Origin: Clostridia bacterium
GTDB lineage: Bacteria > Bacillota > Clostridia > Christensenellales > Aristaeellaceae
NCBI GenBank assembly: GCA_017512805.1
Contig: JAFWES010000055.1
Location: forward strand, 1-62,179
Reading direction: 5' to 3'
DNA length: 62,179 nt
The notes under the pieces are model-generated. The model saw only the letters and a list, made by a program, of their open reading frames with translations, made no database searches and was not told where the DNA came from. A program made the translations under genes and the position numbers. Positions 36,025 through 45,751 of this stretch are shown here, one piece after another; positions within the stretch are counted from its first letter, which is position 1; each line of letters starts with the position of its first letter.

Positions 36025-37215
36025 TCAGGTGGTTTTCCCCCAAAGCTTCAATAGCCGTCCGGCGGCTTCGCGGGTATCGGCGGGATCGCCGAAAGTGGAT
36101 AAGCGGAAGTACCCCTCGCCGCAGGCCCCGAAGCCGGCGCCGGGGGTTCCGACGACCTGGATTTCATTCAGCAGCAGGTCGAAGCATTCCCAGCTTCCCA
36201 TCCCGTCAGGGCATTTCATCCAGATATACGGCGCGTTTTTTCCGCCCCAGTAGCGGATGCCGGCCTGATCCAGCGCCCGCATGAGCACCCGGGCATTTTC
36301 CTTATAAACCCGGATGTTTTCATATATCTGGCGCTGGCCTTCTTCCGTGAAGACAGCGGCGCCGCCCCGCTGCAGGATATAGGAAACACCGTTGGTTTTT
36401 GTGGTCCGGTTTCGAATCCACATCTCCCGGAGATTCATGCCCTGGCGAACCAGTTTCCGGGGCATAACCGTATATCCCAACCGAGTGCCGGTAAACCCCG
36501 CTGTTTTCGAAAGGGAACAGATTTCGATGGCGCAGGACTCCGCTCCGGGGATTTCAAAAATGCTGCGGGGAAGATCCTCCGACACAAACGCTTCATAAGC
36601 CGCGTCGAAGAGAATGACCGCACCCCGGTCGTTGGCCCAGTCCACCCAGGCCTGCAAATGTCCGCAGGTGCAGACCGCGCCGGTCGGGTTGTTCGGCGAG
36701 CAGAGGTAAATCAGATCTGCCTGCAGCCGGTCATCCGGCAGGGGCAGGAAATCATTCTCCGGGCCGGCGGTGAGATATACCATTTTCCGGCCGGCCATGA
36801 TATTCGCGTCCACATAGGCGGGATAGGCCGGCTCCATAATCAGCGCGGTAGAAGAGACATCAAAGAGGTCCAGCAAGTCCCCCAGCTCGTCACTGGCTCC
36901 GCTGGAGACAAACACTTCATCCGCCGTGACCGGCAGATCCCGATCCTGGTAGAAGCGGGCAATCGCTTCCCGAAGAAAAGGGGCGCCGCATTCCGGCATA
37001 TATCCGTGGAAATGGTCCCGGCTCGCCTGATCGTCGACGGCCTGATGCAGCGCGCGGATGACAGCATCGCAGAGCGGAAGAGAGACGTCGCCGATACCCA
37101 TCCGGTACAGATGCGCACCGGGATGATGATTCCGGTATGCCTCGATTTTCTGGTTGATTCCGAAAAAGAGATAGGAATCTTTCAGGTTCTGATATCCGAC
37201 CCGGGGCTGCAGCAT
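36025..37215 (-). CDS. dapL: LL-diaminopimelate aminotransferase
   Basis: A 396-residue fold-type I PLP enzyme that transaminates tetrahydrodipicolinate with glutamate to LL-diaminopimelate, a one-step route to lysine and peptidoglycan. DapL-type features are the start LKDSYLFFGINQKI, YRMGIGDVSLPL, the SPNNPTGA loop and the PLP Lys in SLSKTAGFTGTRLGY. ATG 37215 has GGAGGAAGGAAAACG. It is glutamate-dependent and shares the antitermination-type leader of amt and glnA, tying it to nitrogen status. Confidence 0.93.
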   Translation of the reverse strand: MLQPRVGYQNLKDSYLFFGINQKIEAYRNHHPGAHLYRMGIGDVSLPLCDAVIRALHQAVDDQASRDHFHGYMPECGAPFLREAIARFYQDRDLPVTADEVFVSSGASDELGDLLDLFDVSSTALIMEPAYPAYVDANIMAGRKMVYLTAGPENDFLPLPDDRLQADLIYLCSPNNPTGAVCTCGHLQAWVDWANDRGAVILFDAAYEAFVSEDLPRSIFEIPGAESCAIEICSLSKTAGFTGTRLGYTVMPRKLVRQGMNLREMWIRNRTTKTNGVSYILQRGGAAVFTEEGQRQIYENIRVYKENARVLMRALDQAGIRYWGGKNAPYIWMKCPDGMGSWECFDLLLNEIQVVGTPGAGFGACGEGYFRLSTFGDPADTREAAGRLLKLWGKTT

Positions 37216-37243
37216 CGTTTTCCTTCCTCCATTCGCAGAATAT

Positions 37244-37285
37244 AAAAAAGACAGGGGCGCCTTTCCTCAAGGACGCCCTTGTCCT
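37244..37285 (-). promoter_or_regulatory. dapL leader: ANTAR-type hexaloop hairpin overlapping a terminator
   Basis: Minus-strand AGGAC-AAGGGC-GTCCT (37285-37270) forms a 5-bp stem with a hexaloop that has A at position 1 and G at 4. Its 5' side and loop also pair, as GACAAGGGCG, with the downstream GGCGCCCCTGTC (complement of 37250-37261) to form a terminator followed by six T residues (37249-37244). The two folds are mutually exclusive. Confidence 0.75.
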
Positions 37286-37294
37286 GATGCGGGC

Positions 37295-37323
37295 ATCATA
37301 GCACGGGCGGTTTTTGCTGTCAA
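37295..37323 (-). promoter_or_regulatory. dapL promoter
   Basis: On the minus strand TTGACA (37323-37318), a 17-base spacer and TATGAT (37300-37295). Divergent from the amt promoter. Confidence 0.85.
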
Positions 37324-37412
37324 ACAAAAAACAGCAGGAAAACAATTATGAGACCCAGCGATGATACGGAGCCGTTCCGGAATTTTGATTTGTTTTTTGC
37401 CTGTACTGGCCC

Positions 37413-37441
37413 TTGACAGGCGAAGGGCATCTGCATATAAT
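37413..37441 (+). promoter_or_regulatory. amt-PII promoter
   Basis: Perfect consensus: TTGACA (37413-37418), a 17-base spacer, TATAAT (37436-37441). Confidence 0.9.
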
Positions 37442-37456
37442 CCGCACATCCCGATG

Positions 37457-37494
37457 AGGCGCAAGGGTGTGCTTAAACACCCGGCGCCTTTTTT
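37457..37494 (+). promoter_or_regulatory. amt leader: ANTAR-type hexaloop hairpin overlapping a terminator
   Basis: AGGCGC (37457-37462), hexaloop AAGGGT (37463-37468) and GTGCTT (37469-37474) form the small hairpin. The competing terminator pairs GGCGC (37458-37462) with GCGCC (37484-37488) and GGGTGT (37465-37470) with ACACCC (37477-37482), followed by six T residues (37489-37494). Confidence 0.78.
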
Positions 37495-37530
37495 CATTGT
37501 CGGGAAATACAGGGAAATGGAGTGATTTTC

Positions 37531-39231
37531 ATGACATTCTCAGCCGTCAACACCATCTGGGTCCTTCTCGGAGCCGCACTGGTTTTCTTCATGCAGGCCG
37601 GCTTCGCCATGTGTGAAGCGGGCTTTACCCGCGCAAAGAATACCGGGAATATCCTGATGAAAAACCTGATGGACTTCTGCATCGGTACCCCGCTTTACTG
37701 GCTGTTTGGATATGGCATTATGTTCGGCGCCGGCACCGCGCTTTTTGGATGGATTGATCCTTTCATCATGAAGGACTACGGTCATATCCTTCCGGCCGGG
37801 GTTCCTCTTTGGGCCTATGCCATTTTCCAGACGGTTTTCTGTGCCACCAGCGCCACCATTGTTTCCGGCGCCATGGCTGAGCGAACGAAGTTCTCCGCCT
37901 ATTGCATCTATTCCGCGGCAATATCGCTGTTTATTTATCCGATATCCGGCCATTGGATCTGGGGCGGCGGATGGCTGGCGGATCTGGGCTTCCACGATTT
38001 TGCGGGATCGACCTGCGTTCATATGGTCGGAGGCGTCTGTGCCCTGATCGGCGCAAAGATGCTGGGCCCGCGCATCGGGAAATACGGGAAGGACGGAAAA
38101 CCCAGGGTGATTCTGGGCCATAACCTGTCCATCGCAGCGCTGGGTGTGTTCATTCTCTGGTTCTGCTGGTTCGGCTTTAACGGCGCGAGCACCGTGGGCA
38201 TGGACAGCGATGCGCTGATCGCTTCCGCTTCTCTGGTGTTCTTCAATACCAACCTGGCTGCGGCGGTGGCCACCCTGATCACAATGATCTTTACATGGCT
38301 TCGGTACGGAAAACCGGACGTGTCCATGACCTTCAATGCCGCGCTTGCCGGGCTGGTGGGCATTACGGCCGGATGCGACGCGGTCAATCCCTTCGGCGCG
38401 GCGGTCATTGGACTGTGCTGCGGGCTTGCGGTTGTGTTATCCGTTGAATTCTTCGACAAGGTGGCGAAAATTGACGATCCGGTCGGCGCGATTTCCGTTC
38501 ACGGGGTGTGCGGTGCGCTGGGCACGCTGATGACGGGTCTGTTTGCTACGGGCATCTCCACGATGAAGGGCGTTTTTTACGGCGGAGGCTTCAAATTCCT
38601 GGGTATACAGCTTCTGGGAGTATGCTCGGTGATCGCCTGGACGGCAGTCATTATCACCATCGTGTTTCTGATGATCAGGGCGACCATCGGGCTCCGGGCC
38701 AGCGCGGAGGACGAGATGATGGGGCTGGATCGCTCGGAGCACGGCCTGCATACCGCTTACTCCGGCTTTACCATCATGGCCGACACTGCGATGCAGGAAC
38801 CTGAGCCCGCAGCTGTCCAGACAGTGGAATATAAAGCGCCTGTCCGCACGGAAAAAGAAAAGGCTCCGGGCGCGCCGGTCTATACAAACGTGCGGATCAT
38901 ATGCCGTCCGGGCAGCCTGGAAGCGCTGGAAAAAGCCATGAACAGGATCGGGATCACCGGCATGACGGTCACAAACGTGATGGGTTACGGCACACAGAAA
39001 GGAAAACCGGAATATTATCGCGGGACCCCGGTGGAGGTGACGCTCCTGCCGAAGGTCCAGGTGGATATCGTCGTCAGCAAGGTTCCTGTGAGCCAGGTCA
39101 TCGAAACCGCCCGCGGGGTTTTGTTTACCGGGCATATCGGCGATGGCAAGATCTTTGTGCAGGATGTCGAAAATGTAGTCCGCGTGCGGACGGGTGAAGA
39201 GGGCTACGACGCCCTCCAGTCAGAGGAATAA
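37531..39231 (+). CDS. amt: Ammonium transporter with C-terminal PII domain
   Basis: A 566-residue fusion. Residues 1-400 are an Amt/Rh channel of about eleven helices, with FAMCEAGFTRAKN in the first helix and conserved His motifs HMVGGVCALIGA and SVHGVCGALGTL. A Pro/Glu-rich linker (410-450) leads to a complete PII signal protein (450-566). It has GYGTQKGKPEYYRG, TGHIGDGKIFV (B-loop) and VRVRTGEEG (C-loop). At the place of the uridylylated T-loop Tyr of enterobacterial PII there is Val (RGTPVEV), so that modification is impossible. The ATG 37531 has GGAG at 8 bases. The PII domain probably gates ammonium uptake by ATP/ADP/2-oxoglutarate. Confidence 0.94.
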   Translation: MTFSAVNTIWVLLGAALVFFMQAGFAMCEAGFTRAKNTGNILMKNLMDFCIGTPLYWLFGYGIMFGAGTALFGWIDPFIMKDYGHILPAGVPLWAYAIFQTVFCATSATIVSGAMAERTKFSAYCIYSAAISLFIYPISGHWIWGGGWLADLGFHDFAGSTCVHMVGGVCALIGAKMLGPRIGKYGKDGKPRVILGHNLSIAALGVFILWFCWFGFNGASTVGMDSDALIASASLVFFNTNLAAAVATLITMIFTWLRYGKPDVSMTFNAALAGLVGITAGCDAVNPFGAAVIGLCCGLAVVLSVEFFDKVAKIDDPVGAISVHGVCGALGTLMTGLFATGISTMKGVFYGGGFKFLGIQLLGVCSVIAWTAVIITIVFLMIRATIGLRASAEDEMMGLDRSEHGLHTAYSGFTIMADTAMQEPEPAAVQTVEYKAPVRTEKEKAPGAPVYTNVRIICRPGSLEALEKAMNRIGITGMTVTNVMGYGTQKGKPEYYRGTPVEVTLLPKVQVDIVVSKVPVSQVIETARGVLFTGHIGDGKIFVQDVENVVRVRTGEEGYDALQSEE

Positions 39232-39322
39232 GCAGCCGCCGCGGGGAAGATCCGGAGCCATGATTATTCAGCGAACCGCATTGGAAAAACATCGGGAAAA
39301 CATTTTTTCCGCCGGAATCCTA

Positions 39323-39351
39323 TTGACAGCGGATTTGCCGCGTGCTATGAT
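39323..39351 (+). promoter_or_regulatory. glnA promoter
   Basis: TTGACA (39323-39328), a 17-base spacer and TATGAT (39346-39351). Same layout as the dapL promoter. Confidence 0.88.
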
Positions 39352-39363
39352 CCACGCCAACAA

Positions 39364-39404
39364 GGCAAGGGAGCCATTGGAAAATGGCTCCGCTTGCTTT
39401 TTTT
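39364..39404 (+). promoter_or_regulatory. glnA leader: ANTAR-type hexaloop hairpin overlapping a terminator
   Basis: GGC-AAGGGA-GCC (39364-39375) gives the same A1/G4 hexaloop. The terminator pairs GCAAG with CTTGC and GGAGCCATT with AATGGCTCC (39365-39397, one bulged G), then seven T residues (39398-39404). glnA starts 22 bases later. Confidence 0.8.
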
Positions 39405-39426
39405 GATTATGTGAGGAGGGTTCGTC

Positions 39427-40758
39427 ATGAGCAAAAACACGAAGGAAGACCTGATCCGCCAGGTTCGCGAAGGTGATGTGGAATTTATCCGCATGCAGTT
39501 CACAGACATTTTCGGTCAGCTGAAAAACGTGGCGATTACGGCCAGCCAGATTGAAAAGGCGCTGAACAACGAAATCATGATCGATGGAAGCTCCATCGAG
39601 GGTTTTGTCCGGATCAATGAGAGCGACCAGTATCTACGGCCGGATCTGGATACCTATACCATCCTGCCCTGGCGGCCGCAGCATGGGAAGGTGGCCCGCC
39701 TCATCTGTGACGTCTACAATCCCGACGGGACGCCGTTTGCCGGCGATCCCCGCGGCGTGCTGAAACGGACGCTGGCGCGGGCCGCGGAGATGGGATATTC
39801 CTTCAATGTCGGCCCGGAAATGGAGTTCTTCCTCTTTCAGACGGATGAACAGGGACGCCCCACGACGTCCACGGGGGATGAAGCCGGTTACTTTGATCTG
39901 GGCCCGCTGGATCATGGGGAGAGCACCCGCCGCGAGGTCTGCATGGCCCTGGAACAGATGGGATTTGAAATCGAAGCCAGCCACCACGAGGTTGCCGCCG
40001 GACAGCACGAAATCGATTTCCGGTATGCGGACGCGCTGACAGCCGCGGACAATATCATGACCTTCAAGCTGGCGGTCAAGAGCCTGGCACAGAAGAACGG
40101 CCTGCATGCCACCTTCATGCCCAAGCCGGTTTTCGGCATCAATGGCAGCGGCATGCATACCAACATGAGCCTGTTCAAGGACGGGAAGAACGTGTTTGCC
40201 GATCCTTCCGACCGACGGGGCCTGAGCGGGGAGGCCTACAGCTTTATTGCGGGCATTCTGGCCCATATCCGCGGCATGGCGGCGATTACCAATCCCCTGG
40301 TCAACAGCTATAAGCGCCTTGTGCCCGGATACGAAGCGCCCTGCTATTTGGCCTGGAGCGCCAGCAACCGCAGCGCCCTGATCCGGATCCCCGCGGCCCG
40401 CGGCATGGGGACCCGCGTGGAGCTGCGCTGCCCGGATCCGAGCTGCAACCCCTACCTGAACATGGCGGTATGCCTGGCGGCCGGCCTGGACGGCATCGAG
40501 AAGGGCATGACGCCGCCGGAGGAAATCACCGAGAATATCTTTGCCATGGACAGCGCCACCCGGGAGGCGAAGGGGATCAAATCCCTGCCCGGGACGCTGG
40601 CGGAAGCCGTTGAATGCCTGAAGGCGGATCCTGTCATCTGCGCAGCGCTGGGCGAACATGTGCTGAGCCAGTATGTGGAAGGAAAACAGAAGGAGTGGGA
40701 CGCCTACCGCACGCACGTAAGCCAGTGGGAGATTAACCGGTACATTGTGATGTATTGA
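39427..40758 (+). CDS. glnA: Glutamine synthetase type I
   Basis: A 443-residue GSI-alpha-sized enzyme forming glutamine from glutamate, ammonia and ATP. Marks: MDFxD-like [23 protein letters not shown], the metal site EMEFFLF, ATP loop [12 protein letters not shown] and glutamate-binding [18 protein letters not shown] 39427 follows GGAGGGTTCGTC. First gene of a plus-strand run nitR-gltB-gltD-carA-carB-pyrG. Expression is predicted to need antitermination at its leader. Confidence 0.97.
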
Positions 40759-40815
40759 TACGCGAACGCAGAATCACCCGAACATCGAAACTGACAAGAA
40801 GCGGAGGTGAGGACT

Positions 40816-41355
40816 GTGGCTAGAATTGTGATTGCGGGAAGCTCGGAGCAGAGCCGGGCGCAGCTGGCCCGGCTGCTGTCCTCCTCCGGGTATCCGGTAT
40901 ACCGCCTCTGTGCCAGCGCGGGAGAGCTGCGCCGCGTTCTGAACGAATGCGATGATGGGATTCTGATCCTGGGCGGACAGGTTCCGGAATGCAGCGCGGA
41001 TGAGTTGTACTGGGATTATGGCGAACATGTCCGAATCCTGCTGATCGCGAGACCGCCTGTGCTGGAGAGCTGCGAGGAAGATGGTATTTTTCATCTTGCG
41101 CTGCCTACTTCCCAGCAGGCGGTGCTCGGCGCGGTGGAAATGCTTTCCCAGCTGCACCGGATGAACCTGCCGAAACGGACCGGGAACGACAGGCAGACCA
41201 TCGAGGAAGCGAAACGCCTTCTGATGCGGCGCAGCGGGCTCACGGAACCCCAGGCCCACCGGCAGATTCAGCAGTACGCCATGAATCACGGCATGAAGAT
41301 GGCTGATTGCGCATCTCAAATCCTCGAGCGGGCGGAGAAGGAAAGAAATGCGTAA
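40816..41355 (+). CDS. nitR: ANTAR-domain antitermination regulator downstream of glnA
   Basis: A 179-residue protein. The C-terminal ANTAR RNA-binding domain (about 118-172) is clear: IEEAKRLLMRRSGLTEPQAH and HGMKMADCASQIL. The N-terminal part has a receiver-like fold, but the usual phospho-acceptor site reads ILILGGQVP, lacking Asp, so it is a pseudo-receiver controlled by other means. GTG 40816 is chosen for GGAGG at 8 bases; 40807 is an alternative. In clostridia this gene (NitR) follows glnA and is proposed to act as a nitrogen-dependent antiterminator. Its likely targets are the three AAGGGN hexaloop leaders upstream. Confidence 0.88.
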   Translation: MARIVIAGSSEQSRAQLARLLSSSGYPVYRLCASAGELRRVLNECDDGILILGGQVPECSADELYWDYGEHVRILLIARPPVLESCEEDGIFHLALPTSQQAVLGAVEMLSQLHRMNLPKRTGNDRQTIEEAKRLLMRRSGLTEPQAHRQIQQYAMNHGMKMADCASQILERAEKERNA

Positions 41356-41392
41356 CTGTTCAGCCCTGCAAGCGGAGCAGCTGAATCGTTAC
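41352..41392 (+). repeat. Palindromic dispersed repeat, short copy
   Basis: GTAACTGTTCAG at the left and CTGAATCGTTAC at the right are inverted repeats with one mismatch, enclosing CTGC/GCAG. The left arm supplies the nitR stop codon (TAA 41353-41355). The same arms occur at 61929-62013. Confidence 0.7.
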
Positions 41393-41428
41393 GGATGATC
41401 AGAAAGAAAGAAACCGGAGGAGAACGCC

Positions 41429-44400
41429 ATGCAGGACCGGCAGTACCCCCTGTATCACGAAGAACTGGAGCATGAAAGCTGCGGCGTCGGTGCGATCATT
41501 GACCTGAGCGGAAAAGCGACCCATCGGACGGTGGACCAGGCGCTCTGTATTGTGGAGCGCCTGGCTCACAGGGCGGGCAGCGACGCCCCCGGCACGACGG
41601 GCGACGGCGTCGGCATCATGACCCATATTCCCCACACCCTTTTTTCCGCCTGGGCCCAGGAAGAAGGAATCATTCTTGGGAAACCGGGTGAATACGGCGT
41701 GGGGATGTTCTTTTTACCGGAGGATGAGGTGGGGGCGGGCAGCGCCCGCCGAATCTTTGACCAGCTGACGTCCTCGGAGGGGCTGCAGACGCTGGGATGG
41801 CGCATTGTACCGTGCCATCCGGCGCAGCTGGGGGCGGGGGCGCGCCGCAGCATGCCCCGGATCTGGCAGTGCTTCCTGAAAAAGCCGGAGGGAATGTCCG
41901 CCGGGCTGGATTTTGACAGGAAGCTGTACGTGCTGCGCCGGGTCTTCGAAAAACAGGACACGGACGCCTATATATGTTCTCTGTCCAGCCGCACCATTGT
42001 CTACAAAGGGATGATGCTGGTCAGTCAGCTGCGTTCCTTCTATGACGATCTGCAGGACGTCCGGTATGTAAGCCCGATGGCGATGGTTCATTCCCGGTTT
42101 TCCACCAATACTTTCCCCTCCTGGAGCAAGGCGCATCCGCAGCGGATGCTGCTGCATAACGGGGAGATCAATACCATCCGGGGCAATCACGACCGTATGA
42201 AAGCCCGGGAGGAGACCATGCGCTCCGGGGTCATGGGGCCGGAGATGCGGCGCGTGCTCCCGGTGGTAAGCGAGGGCGGCAGCGACAGCCAGATGCTGGA
42301 CAATACGATGGAGTTCCTCGTCATGAACGGCTTCCCGCTGTCGCTGGCCGGGATGGTTCTGATCCCGGAGCCCTGGCAGGGATCGGAAAAAGCCACCCCC
42401 TGGCGGGATCTTTACAGGTACTATGCCACCATGATGGAGCCCTGGGACGGGCCTGCAGCCATCCTGTATTCGGATGGGGAGAGGGTCTGCGCATCCCTGG
42501 ACCGGAACGGCCTCCGCCCGCTGAGATGCGCGCTAACGGACGACCGCAGGCTGATCCTTTCCTCGGAGGCGGGGGTACTGTACGAAGAAAACGCGCATAT
42601 CATCCGCCGGTGGAAACTGAAGGGGGGCGACGTACTGGAGGCGAACCTGCAAAGCGGGGAGCTCCTGGAAAGCGAGACCCTGAAATCGGCCTACGCCCTC
42701 CGTCACCCTTATGCGGAATGGATGCGTCATTTGATTACCCTCCATGACCTGCCCAATGGGAACATGACGGAGCGAACCGGGGAGGAGACCGGGAGACGGA
42801 CCCAGCTGTGCAAGGCATTCCATTACACCTGGGAGGACCTGCACGATATCCTGATTCCCATGGCTGAAAACGGCGCGGAGCCCATTGGTTCCATGGGCGC
42901 GGACATTCCGCTGGCGGCGCTGAGCAAAACCCATCCATCGCTGTTCGATTATTTCAGACAGCGCTTTGCCCAGGTGACCAATCCGCCCATCGACGCCCTG
43001 CGGGAGAAGATCAAGACGGACGCCACCATCTACATCGGTGACGACGGCAACCTGCTTTCGGAGGGGCCGGACAACTGTACGGTGCTGGAAATCCCGTCCC
43101 CGGTCCTGACGGAGGAGGAGCTGGGCCGAATCCGGGAAATCCGGCACCCCGCATTCGCCGTGCGGACTGTTTCCCTGCTGTACAGCGCCGATTCCACGCT
43201 GCGGGAGGCATTGAACGCGCTTTTTGAGCAATGTGACCGGGCCAGCAGGGATCGGATCAATATCCTGATCCTGTCAGACAGAGGCGTCCGGGAAGACACG
43301 CTGTCCATTCCGTCCCTGCTGGCTGTATCCGCCCTGGAACAGCACCTGATCCGGATGAAACGGCGCACGGCTGTATCCGTCATTCTGGAAAGCGGAGAAC
43401 CCCGCGATGTGCATCAGATGGCGCTGCTGGTGGCCTTTGGGGCCCGGGCGGTCAATCCATATCTGTCCCATGACTGTATCCGGGCCCTGAGCGCAGAGGG
43501 ACGGATTCAAAAGAACGCAGAAGACGCGGTTCGGAACTATGACCAGGCGCTGAAGGACGGGATTCTGAAAATCGCGTCCAAGATGGGCGTATCCACCCTG
43601 CAGGCCTATCAGAGCGCCCAGCTTTTCGAAACTGTCGGGTTGGACAGGCCGCTGGTGGAGAAATACTTTACGAACACGCCCGGCGCCCTGGGCGGCACCG
43701 ATCTGAACCGGATCGAAGCGGATCTGCGGTTTCACCACGGGAAAGCCTTCGCCAGGTCAGGATCAGAAGGCCTCCCCAGCATCGGCCTGCACCGGCTGCG
43801 GACGGGGGAAGGCGCTGAGGAGCATCTGTACTCTCCTGAGACCATTCATCTGCTTCAGCAGGCGGTGTGGACTGACAGCCGGGCGCTGTTCGACCGGTAC
43901 GCGGCCCGGATCGAGCACGAAGGTCCGCGGACCATCCGTTCCATGCTGACATTCGATTTTGACGCCTGCCGGGCGGTACCGCTGGAGGAAGTGGAGCCGG
44001 CGGGCGAAATTGTGAAGCGATTCCGCACCGGGGCCATGAGCTACGGCTCTATTTCCCGGGAAGCGCATGAATGCATGGCCCGGGCCATGAACCGTCTGGG
44101 CGGAAAATCCAACAGCGGCGAAGGGGGAGAGCTGCCGGAGCGGTTCGGGACGGAACTCAATTCCGCCATCAAGCAGGTGGCCTCCGGCCGGTTCGGCGTC
44201 ACCAGAGAGTATCTGCTGTCCGCCAGGGAAATCCAAATCAAGATGGCGCAAGGCGCGAAACCGGGAGAGGGCGGGCATCTGCCAGGGGCCAAAGTGACGG
44301 AAGACATCGCCAAAACCCGATGCTCCACGCCGGGCATTTCGCTCATTTCCCCGCCCCCGCATCATGATATCTACTCCATCGAGGATCTGGCGGAGCTGAT

Positions 44401-45751
44401 CTATGACCTGCAGTGCGCCAACGAGGAAGCAAAAATCACCGTGAAGCTGGTATCCACCAGCGGTGTGGGCACGATCGCCAGCGGCGTGGCCAAAGCCGGA
44501 GCGGGCGGAATCCTGATCTCCGGCGGAGAAGGCGGCACCGGGGCCGCTCCCATAAGCAGCGTGCATCACGCGGGGATGCCCTGGGAAATCGGGCTGGCGG
44601 AAGCCCATCAGGTGCTCTGCCGCAACCGGCTGAGGGAGAAGGTCACGCTGGAGACGGACGGCAAACTGATGACCGGACACGAGGTGGCGGTCGCGATGCT
44701 GCTGGGCGCGGAAGAGTTCGGCTTTGCCACCGCGCCGCTGATCACCATGGGATGCCGGATGATGCGGGTATGCCATATGGGCACCTGCCCCTTCGGGATC
44801 GCCACGCAGAATCCGGAGCTCCGGAAACGTTTTATGGGGAAACCGGAATACGTGGAGCGCTTCATGCTCTTTATTGCGGAGCAGCTCCGGGAGATCATGG
44901 CGGGGCTGGGAGCCCGGACGGTGAACGAGCTGGTGGGCCGGAGCGACCTGCTGCGGATCCGGCCGGAAGCGGAGGTGGACCTGAGCGACCTGATCACCTT
45001 TGCCCGGAACACCCATTATCAGAAGGAATCGAAGCATGATTTCCATCTGGCGGAACGGATGGACGCCCGGCTGTTCCAGAATCATGTGCATCTGACAACC
45101 ACCGACAGGGCATTCGGCACGATGCTGAAAGGGGAAAGGCGGATTCAGGCCCAGGGCTGCGGCGGGCAGAGCTTCGGCGCATTCCTGCCGGAGAAGCAGG
45201 CCATTACGCTGTACGGGGTGGCGAATGATTATCTGGGAAAAGGCCTTTCCGGCGGCACGCTGGTGGTCTGTCCACCAGCGGACAGCCTCTGGCGGCGGGA
45301 GGATACCCTGATCGGCAATGTGGCCCTCTACGGCGCGACAGGGGGATACGCCTTCGTGGCAGGCCGGGCCGGAGAACGCTTTGCGGTGCGTAATTCCGGG
45401 GCCTGGGCCGTGGTGGAAGGCGTGGGAGACCACGGGTGCGAGTATATGACCGGCGGACGGGTGGCTGTGCTGGGCAAGGTGGGAGACAACTTCGCGGCGG
45501 GCATGAGCGGCGGAATCGCCTGGGTGCTGGATGAGGACGGCATGCTGGAGTCCGCGCTGAATCCCGGCCATGTGAAGGCCTGCATCGTGCCTGAGGGCCA
45601 GGCGGAGGAGCTTGTGCAACTGCTGCGGATGCATGAAAAGGCCACCGGATCCCCCAGAGCGGCTGAAATTCTCCGGGATTTTGACGCCTGGCTGCCCCTG
45701 TTCAAAATGGTCATTTCCGATGAATACCTGAAGATCCTGAAAGGAGCATGA
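41429..45751 (+). CDS. gltB: Glutamate synthase large subunit
   Basis: A 1440-residue enzyme. The N-terminal class II glutaminase has its nucleophile Cys in ESCGVGAIID near residue 18, so a short propeptide must be removed. A central domain and the FMN barrel (SGGEGGTGAAP) follow, then the 3Fe-4S cysteines in CRMMRVCHMGTCPFG and the C-terminal beta-helix GXGXG domain. It makes glutamate from glutamine and 2-oxoglutarate with GltD. ATG 41429 follows GGAGGAGAACGCC. Ends 4 bases before gltD. Confidence 0.97.
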   Translation: MQDRQYPLYHEELEHESCGVGAIIDLSGKATHRTVDQALCIVERLAHRAGSDAPGTTGDGVGIMTHIPHTLFSAWAQEEGIILGKPGEYGVGMFFLPEDEVGAGSARRIFDQLTSSEGLQTLGWRIVPCHPAQLGAGARRSMPRIWQCFLKKPEGMSAGLDFDRKLYVLRRVFEKQDTDAYICSLSSRTIVYKGMMLVSQLRSFYDDLQDVRYVSPMAMVHSRFSTNTFPSWSKAHPQRMLLHNGEINTIRGNHDRMKAREETMRSGVMGPEMRRVLPVVSEGGSDSQMLDNTMEFLVMNGFPLSLAGMVLIPEPWQGSEKATPWRDLYRYYATMMEPWDGPAAILYSDGERVCASLDRNGLRPLRCALTDDRRLILSSEAGVLYEENAHIIRRWKLKGGDVLEANLQSGELLESETLKSAYALRHPYAEWMRHLITLHDLPNGNMTERTGEETGRRTQLCKAFHYTWEDLHDILIPMAENGAEPIGSMGADIPLAALSKTHPSLFDYFRQRFAQVTNPPIDALREKIKTDATIYIGDDGNLLSEGPDNCTVLEIPSPVLTEEELGRIREIRHPAFAVRTVSLLYSADSTLREALNALFEQCDRASRDRINILILSDRGVREDTLSIPSLLAVSALEQHLIRMKRRTAVSVILESGEPRDVHQMALLVAFGARAVNPYLSHDCIRALSAEGRIQKNAEDAVRNYDQALKDGILKIASKMGVSTLQAYQSAQLFETVGLDRPLVEKYFTNTPGALGGTDLNRIEADLRFHHGKAFARSGSEGLPSIGLHRLRTGEGAEEHLYSPETIHLLQQAVWTDSRALFDRYAARIEHEGPRTIRSMLTFDFDACRAVPLEEVEPAGEIVKRFRTGAMSYGSISREAHECMARAMNRLGGKSNSGEGGELPERFGTELNSAIKQVASGRFGVTREYLLSAREIQIKMAQGAKPGEGGHLPGAKVTEDIAKTRCSTPGISLISPPPHHDIYSIEDLAELIYDLQCANEEAKITVKLVSTSGVGTIASGVAKAGAGGILISGGEGGTGAAPISSVHHAGMPWEIGLAEAHQVLCRNRLREKVTLETDGKLMTGHEVAVAMLLGAEEFGFATAPLITMGCRMMRVCHMGTCPFGIATQNPELRKRFMGKPEYVERFMLFIAEQLREIMAGLGARTVNELVGRSDLLRIRPEAEVDLSDLITFARNTHYQKESKHDFHLAERMDARLFQNHVHLTTTDRAFGTMLKGERRIQAQGCGGQSFGAFLPEKQAITLYGVANDYLGKGLSGGTLVVCPPADSLWRREDTLIGNVALYGATGGYAFVAGRAGERFAVRNSGAWAVVEGVGDHGCEYMTGGRVAVLGKVGDNFAAGMSGGIAWVLDEDGMLESALNPGHVKACIVPEGQAEELVQLLRMHEKATGSPRAAEILRDFDAWLPLFKMVISDEYLKILKGA

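Follow-up and report, generated by a model that had tools for sequence, protein, structure and literature searches.

Promoter-proximal leaders with a single hexaloop as probable ANTAR antitermination targets in glutamine metabolism of Clostridia

Can an ANTAR protein prevent termination in a leader RNA that holds only one hexaloop? The minimal ANTAR binding site is one hexaloop and both hexaloops of a target are needed for antitermination, according to Walshe 2022, who called for bioinformatic work on single hexaloops (PMC8934654). The question is raised by a nitrogen gene cluster in a 62,179-nucleotide stretch of DNA from a member of the Clostridia (contig JAFWES010000055.1 of assembly GCA_017512805.1, positions 1 to 62,179; hereafter the window), in which dapL, a fused amt-PII gene and glnA each follow a compact leader, and an ANTAR gene follows glnA. 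We consider it probable that ANTAR-controlled, one-hairpin antitermination close to the transcription start governs glutamine metabolism. The support consists of the anatomy of the leaders, covariation, constraint on the loop, class-wide spread, co-occurrence with ANTAR genes and the lack of an upstream recruitment hairpin (P1) in the leaders scanned.

Three leaders in the window

A first-pass annotation of the window had claimed that dapL, amt-PII and glnA each have a TTGACA-N17-TATRAT promoter, followed 14-21 nt past the -10 by a hairpin with hexaloop AAGGGC, AAGGGT or AAGGGA whose stem overlaps an intrinsic terminator. Both claims were borne out. The promoters lie at 37295..37323 on the minus strand (dapL, TTGACA-N17-TATGAT, with TG before the -10), 37413..37441 on the plus strand (amt, TTGACA-N17-TATAAT) and 39323..39351 on the plus strand (glnA, TTGACA-N17-TATGAT, again with TG before the -10); all have a spacer of 17 and they are the top three of five promoter-like sites in 36900-41500. 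Transcription was taken to start 6-7 nt after the -10. The hexaloop follows the -10 by 14 nt in dapL, 21 nt in amt and 15 nt in glnA, and is closed by C-G in all three. The predicted antiterminator hairpins are AGGAC[AAGGGC]GTCCT for dapL (37270..37285, minus strand), AGGCGC[AAGGGT]GTGCTT for amt (37457..37474, plus strand) and GGC[AAGGGA]GCC for glnA (39364..39375, plus strand). The last of these is weak in the window copy and, since its stem has only three contiguous pairs (GGC/GCC), was missed by a scan requiring at least 4 bp; in relatives, the hexaloop stem is usually 3 bp, a mismatch and 2 bp.

Each hairpin is overlapped by an intrinsic terminator with a U-tract: 37244..37285 on the minus strand for dapL (stem 37285-37248, with the hexaloop in its 5' arm; -22.4 kcal/mol, z -4.0), 37456..37494 on the plus strand for amt (-24.0 kcal/mol, z -4.5) and 39362..39404 on the plus strand for glnA (-26.2 kcal/mol, z -6.0). 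In each leader, the structure of lowest energy is this terminator, which takes in both hexaloop and stem; 0/200 shuffles fold as low. The pattern TTGAC-N17..19-TAnnAT-N8..26-AAGGG occurs at 24 places in the 3.07-Mb genome, against one for a reversed-pattern control, and among the 20 of these 24 places inspected by eye only dapL, amt and glnA have a U-tract terminator together with an AAGGGN hexaloop closed by C-G. Elsewhere in the same genome (L040, G000:C23:3766-3816, minus strand; L and G denote loci and genomes), a promoter, GGG[AAAGGG]CCC and a terminator-like repeat with a T-run may form a weak fourth leader. A known Rfam RNA family was rejected as the identity of the leaders, because no family reached its gathering threshold in the whole window and only chance-level matches were found around the leaders.

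Conservation and spread of the leader

Genus leaders were sought upstream of glnA, amt, dapL and asnB genes with at least 60% identity, by a script requiring three pairs, a purine at loop position 1 and G at position 4; C-G closure was a condition in the order and class locus scans and in the P1 scan, not in this script. With three glnA leaders that have weak U-tracts and were added under a looser rule, this gave 73 distinct leaders (36 glnA, 17 dapL, 11 asnB and 9 amt). Among the rows printed as failures of the script, none was seen failing for lack of G4 or A/G1. A leader was absent from one of 50 glnA loci (L080), which is from another family. The 11 asnB leaders occur where asnB heads the divergent operon, and dapL bears the leader where it intervenes. 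Twenty loci come from organisms named Clostridia or Clostridiales bacterium, whose gut source, where stated, is goat, sheep or yak.

Two other features were seen at asnB. There is a possible short reading frame between leader and gene in L074, L075 and L078. In other loci, a T-box leader seems to replace the hexaloop leader (L055:3247-3496, plus strand; by eye also L054, L090-L092, L094 and L096), which would be a swap of control device on one gene. The L055 T-box scored 77.9 bits in Rfam (E 3e-17), under the gathering score of 93, and a gathering-level Rfam search of L055, L090 and L094 gave no match.

Among the 64 distinct 24-mers of the genus set, the closing C-G, A2 and G4 never vary, 61 have A1, and position 6 is free. 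The second pair is G-U in 33, G-C in 23 and A-U in 8, and the third is G-C in 53, C-G in 9, G-U in 1 and A-C in 1; the fourth is mostly a mismatch (paired in 17/64), and the fifth and sixth are formed in 51/64 and 50/64. Pairs 3 and 6 are formed more often than in shuffles (63 vs 47.7 and 50 vs 37.8). In the order-wide alignment of 46 rows, in which the amt rows are misaligned, the closing C-G is found in 46/46 rows, 83.5% of the cells of the hexaloop helix are paired (0/500 shuffles as high), the covariation score is 0.339 against 0.197 in shuffles (0/500) and at most 0.132 in slid helices, and both sides are changed in 27 cells against 9.8 (0/500).

Might these leaders be constitutive attenuators, that is, terminators with a conserved 5' arm and no regulation? 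Such a reading would be in keeping with the folding of the three window leaders, whose lowest-energy structure is in each case the terminator. However, loop position 2 is A in 72/72 distinct terminators, though unpaired in 24 of them, and loop position 4 is G in 72/72, including 15 in which it does not face a C (5 with U as partner, 10 with none). Because these bases stay constant where their terminator partners vary or vanish, terminator pairing alone is an insufficient explanation, and a conserved unregulated terminator was rejected on this ground. Since, in addition, the alternative hairpin covaries and the presence of leaders is tied to ANTAR genes (see below), we regard constitutive attenuation as very improbable.

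The leaders extend far beyond the genus. A covariance model built from 49 genus leaders, amt excluded (R1), matched 41/45 genus genomes (E ≤ 0.1) and 53/296 order genomes (E ≤ 0.01), some of the weaker matches being due to chance. A second model, trained inside the order only (R2), matched 32/291 class genomes (E ≤ 0.01), 31 of them outside the order, and most of the 29 class loci inspected are clear leaders. Those of the order share the design, often with AAAGGC[AAAGGC]GTCTTT a few nt past the -10, and order and class loops include AAAGGC, AATGGC and AACGGA (G4 and A/G1 being search conditions). Three weak matches were false, since L155 looks coding, and L161 and L162 lack a clear hexaloop. 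The amt form, with its GGCGC stem, is a distinct subtype: amt leaders were matched weakly by R1, from which they had been left out (e.g., E 0.005 in G015), the three listed of the five R1 matches in the source genome do not include the amt leader of the window, and R2 missed it too.

Domain searches of 14 proteins encoded behind leaders, picked to cover the kinds seen (other gene names were assigned by eye), identified GSIII, purC, asnA, gdhA, amt, purF and asnB, and further pyrG, glmS, gltB, guaA, purA and amidotransferases. Most target genes have a role in producing or consuming glutamine or ammonia. The link is not a direct one for purC, purA and dapL, and no nitrogen tie was evident for the genes behind L143, L208, L229 and L233. 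A covariance search of relatives for the single hairpin thus found the module genus-, order- and class-wide, with covariation. The regulon of three leaders first predicted for the window is supported as to its nature, ANTAR-type single-hexaloop attenuators, but its extent was set too small: it is class-wide and comprises mostly glutamine-making and glutamine-using genes.

The search for a second hexaloop

We scanned 117 leaders for P1 (73 from the genus, 19 from the order and 25 from the class). The order and class leaders come from 48 scanned loci, of which L157, L206, L209 and L225 gave no call and are outside the counts; L141, L155, L161, L162 and L207 were not in the scan. Median spacing between the -10 and the loop is 15 nt in all three groups; between the -10 and the foot of the stem it is 12 nt in the genus, 9 in the order and 10 in the class. 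A second C-G-closed A1/G4 hexaloop between the -10 and the stem was found in 0/73 genus, 0/19 order and 1/25 class leaders, and the single case (L227) was rejected as P1 because the script had taken the terminator loop for the main loop. A further 60 nt, preceding the -35, held such a hexaloop in 0/117 leaders, with about 2-3 expected by chance (background 104/4600 60-nt windows). The departure from the dual-hexaloop rule noticed in the window is borne out: no P1 is seen in 117 leaders once one artifact is removed.

Downstream, a second hexaloop at 12-90 nt was seen in 6/73 genus, 2/19 order and 3/25 class leaders. In L148, L154, L224, L227 and L232 (near position 1500), tandem hexaloop-terminator modules stand behind one promoter, each with its own terminator. 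Three of the nine amt leaders (L099:15661-15810, L107:16321-16470 and L108:13599-13745) carry a second A1/G4 hexaloop after the U-tract with no second terminator; this hairpin is GTAC[AAGGGC/T]GTAC, directly 3' of the U-tract of the first terminator, and the first loop of L107 and L108 has G, not A, at position 1. A second hexaloop of the window's own amt leader was dismissed, since its U-tract pairs by chance. In L072 (dapL) and L078 (asnB), a 4-bp hexaloop AAAGGA covers a likely ribosome-binding site 3' of the terminator, which may be chance.

How sensitive is such a search? As a positive control, we looked for dual hexaloops in the 400 nt upstream of EutP matches at 29 loci, and in four whole EutP loci, and found none in either. 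A looser scan (stem of at least 3) of wider regions in four class genomes bearing both ANTAR and eut genes gave candidates in all four. Judged by eye, two are real, with two hexaloops followed by a terminator, namely L265 (about 6082, minus strand), whose downstream gene looks like an iron-type alcohol dehydrogenase, and L268 (about 12042, plus strand), whose downstream gene looks like eutA; the candidates in L266 and L267 look like chance. The same dual rule with a stem of at least 4, applied to all loci, gave 18 candidates, mostly chance by eye. With these mixed results, the sensitivity of the P1 search is only roughly known.

These data bear on the possibility that the leaders are ordinary dual-hexaloop targets whose P1 went unrecognized because transcription starts further upstream, the P1 loop is unusual or the partner lies downstream. 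Such a reading gains from the start sites being predicted only, from the few leaders in which the distance from the -10 to the stem reaches 18-21 nt, from the amt hexaloops after the U-tract, and from a looser scan that drops the C-G condition and gives an upstream partner for L207 and for L213, in each case over the promoter. We nevertheless consider it quite improbable, because neither interval scanned upstream of the stem held a P1, because about 6 nt of the median 9-12 nt between the -10 and the stem precede the start, and because dual hexaloops are seen in scans of eut regions (L265 and L268).

The ANTAR protein and comparison with known systems

The nitrogen cluster of the window comprises guaA, asnB and dapL on the minus strand, and amt-PII, glnA, the ANTAR gene and gltB on the plus strand. 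The genes flanking the leaders are dapL (36025..37215, minus strand), encoding LL-diaminopimelate aminotransferase (TIGR03542), and, by domain search, amt (37531..39231, plus strand), encoding an ammonium transporter with a C-terminal P-II domain, and glnA (39427..40758, plus strand), encoding a type I glutamine synthetase. The ANTAR gene (40816..41355, plus strand) lies right after glnA, as had been noted at first, and is the sole ANTAR gene found in the source genome (PF03861 search; genome 88% complete). It is presumably co-transcribed with gltB (glutamate synthase large subunit; 41429..45751), which lies 3' of it on the same strand. An ANTAR gene directly after glnA is a defining trait of NitR, and the NitR gene of Clostridium saccharobutylicum reportedly adjoins glnA. 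Lying 3' of glnA on the same strand, the ANTAR gene would be a member of its own regulon and subject to positive autoregulation.

This arrangement recurs in the genus, where an ANTAR protein homolog is present in 42/61 genomes, own genome counted. In 48/48 retrieved loci with both genes, the ANTAR gene lies on the same strand as glnA and at most 250 nt behind it, and gltB is within 300 nt of the ANTAR gene in 45 of them (some loci share a genome). In the three exceptions (L055, L065 and L104; G031 and G018), gltB is elsewhere and has its own hexaloop leader there (L167 and L180). In L180, a partial second ANTAR fragment of 41 residues with 59% identity (G018:C27:14987-15109) lies between the hexaloop leader and the gltB copy.

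The encoded protein consists of a receiver-like domain and a C-terminal ANTAR domain (PF03861, 61.4 bits against a curated cut-off of 27.3). The phosphorylatable aspartate of the receiver is missing: Gly53 aligns with the aspartate of the Rv1626 motif IMD, and Asp occupies this column in 0/21 sequences of the alignment. Thus, despite its receiver-like fold, the protein is not a phosphorylatable two-component response regulator of the EutV type. An AlphaFold2 monomer (mean pLDDT 88.7, 21 sequences) has receiver-like and ANTAR folds joined by a low-confidence linker (118-122), and its best Foldseek matches are EutV with RNA, EutV and Rv1626. The EutV RNA contacts R142 and M172 are retained in the alignment as R126 and M156 (with a numbering offset of 2 deduced from the residue letters).

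Leaders and ANTAR genes occur together. ANTAR genes are present in 131/296 order genomes (44%), against 27/28 of those with a leader at E ≤ 1e-3 (Fisher 9e-10; this and the following P values ignore phylogeny), 21/22 when the own genus is excluded (P = 1e-7) and 42/53 at the looser E ≤ 0.01. In the class, they are present in 145/291 genomes (50%) against 30/32 with a leader (P = 2.6e-8), and in the 37 genus genomes considered, a leader at E ≤ 1e-3 is found in 29/29 with an ANTAR gene and 4/8 without. Three genus genomes (G022, G028 and G032; 64%, 66% and 54% complete) match neither, possibly by joint loss or through assembly gaps. Leader and ANTAR gene are at most 10 kb apart in 14/22 order genomes and 14/31 class genomes.

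How might such a leader work? We propose that transcription begins a few nt ahead of a short hairpin whose loop is a hexaloop of ANTAR type (A1, G4 and C-G). By default, the downstream terminator would absorb hexaloop and stem, and transcription would end near +40 to +47. Under a shortage of nitrogen or glutamine, the single hexaloop would be bound and held closed by the NitR-like ANTAR protein from the same operon; with the terminator blocked, genes for glutamine synthetase, glutamate synthase, ammonium uptake and glutamine-using enzymes would be expressed. Induction on nitrogen limitation is assumed by analogy, its sign being taken from NitR of C. saccharobutylicum (PMC6316151). No P1 would be used; it may be dispensable either because the single hexaloop is bound more tightly or because early formation of the hairpin at the 5' end replaces recruitment. 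For the class as a whole, we lean toward the view that one-hairpin ANTAR attenuators near the start, read by NitR-like proteins with non-phosphorylatable receivers, control genes that make or use glutamine, with P1 unneeded because the protein would catch the lone hexaloop when only ~30 nt of RNA exist and the terminator is still to be transcribed.

A dimeric ANTAR protein might instead satisfy the two-hexaloop rule in trans, by bridging the hexaloops of two nascent transcripts, whether from divergent leaders or from successive polymerases. The divergent dapL and amt leaders of the window do sit close together, in relatives glnA is divergent from dapL or asnB, and in EutV crystals one dimer holds the hexaloops of different RNAs (PMC8934654). 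Against this, many order and class leaders are single at their place, trans binding by EutV was judged unlikely on the time scale of transcription by Walshe 2022 (PMC8934654), and the low-confidence linker of the model differs from the continuous coiled coil of EutV, although a monomer cannot settle dimerization. Nothing in our analysis bears out this version, which had been suggested from the window alone, and we hold it to be quite unlikely.

Besides the downstream hexaloops of three amt leaders, several results weigh against control by an ANTAR protein through one hairpin. Pairs 4 and 5 of the genus set form no better than in shuffles (17 vs 19.7 and 51 vs 50.0), and, of the five order-wide measures, double-change pairs (4 vs 3.3; 198/500 shuffles as high) are unremarkable and pair types (13 vs 10.5; 17/500) weak. 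The antiterminator is far weaker than the terminator (mean -5.3 vs -22.1 kcal/mol), and for only 44/73 leaders does it come out as the lowest-energy structure of the 24-mer. The EutV contacts K143, K147 and Y164 are replaced by Q127, E131 and H148 (same deduced offset). Two class genomes (G372 and G376, 96-97% complete) have leaders that look real (L213 and L207) and no ANTAR match, and four genus genomes with a leader at E ≤ 1e-3 (G005, G024, G027 and G034; 57-78% complete) likewise gave no ANTAR match. Finally, EutV needs P1 and NasR binds a single hairpin weakly, so that with a known ANTAR protein a lone hairpin would be expected to fall short. The weak antiterminator and the two class genomes, together with the binding of ANTAR protein to leader RNA being predicted only, could also point to terminators under another factor, an RNA-binding protein or small molecule, with the ANTAR gene a bystander of the glnA cluster. 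This we find quite unlikely, given that A1, G4 and C-G closure fit ANTAR specificity, that leaders co-occur with and lie near ANTAR genes, and that Rfam offers no other family for them.

Should ANTAR control through one hairpin be confirmed, it would contradict the view that antitermination always requires two hexaloops. The leaders form a natural class-wide set in which a lone hexaloop is embedded in a terminator and not preceded by another hairpin, and so make the P1 requirement directly testable. Confirmation would also mean that many uncultured gut Clostridia have a general system of nitrogen control whose form is not sought by dual-hairpin searches, and it would offer engineers a very compact terminator under protein control. 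No description of one-hexaloop antitermination leaders was found in open-access titles and abstracts, although Stutz 2007 possibly contains one, nor is there any in the available sections of PMC8934654, PMC3369931, PMC7496416, PMC6316151, PMC8632094 and PMC3369936.

How do the leaders compare with known systems? According to a review (PMC6316151), NitR of C. saccharobutylicum is likewise a clostridial ANTAR regulator and induces GS/GOGAT genes on nitrogen limitation by antitermination. The predicted dual-hexaloop nitrogen regulons of Ramesh 2012, with PII, ammonium transporters, and glutamine and glutamate synthases, resemble the target genes found here; because that search used a dual-hairpin model with a terminator screen, it was not aimed at leaders with one hairpin (PMC3369931). 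SacY/BglG-type RAT antiterminators also use one protein-stabilized hairpin overlapping a terminator but are described as another protein system (PMC3369931), and we compared them by description only. With nasF, the target of NasR, the leaders share the loop specificity determined by SELEX (terminal C:G, A1 and G4); nasF differs in its two hairpins and NasR in its NIT sensor domain, and a single hairpin is bound about 12 times more weakly (about 12 uM against about 1 uM for two; PMC7496416). Closest in form are the eut leaders of Enterococcus faecalis controlled by EutV/EutW, with an A1/G4 hexaloop, conserved closing pairs and terminator overlap (PMC3369931, PMC8934654), and a regulator of similar receiver-ANTAR make-up, the phosphorylatable aspartate and continuous coiled coil of EutV being replaced here by a receiver-like domain lacking that residue and a low-confidence linker in the model. 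EutV requires A1 and G4, residues A29 and A53 (numbered from the start) lie in the loops of the eutP leader, and deletion of P1 abolishes EutV-dependent induction (PMC3369931). EutV thus needs two hairpins, whereas the window leaders have one, its loop beginning at roughly +9 to +16 if transcription starts as predicted. Taken together, the leaders share with dual-hexaloop ANTAR targets A1/G4, C-G closure and, by computation, mutual exclusion with a terminator, and they depart from them in having a single hairpin.

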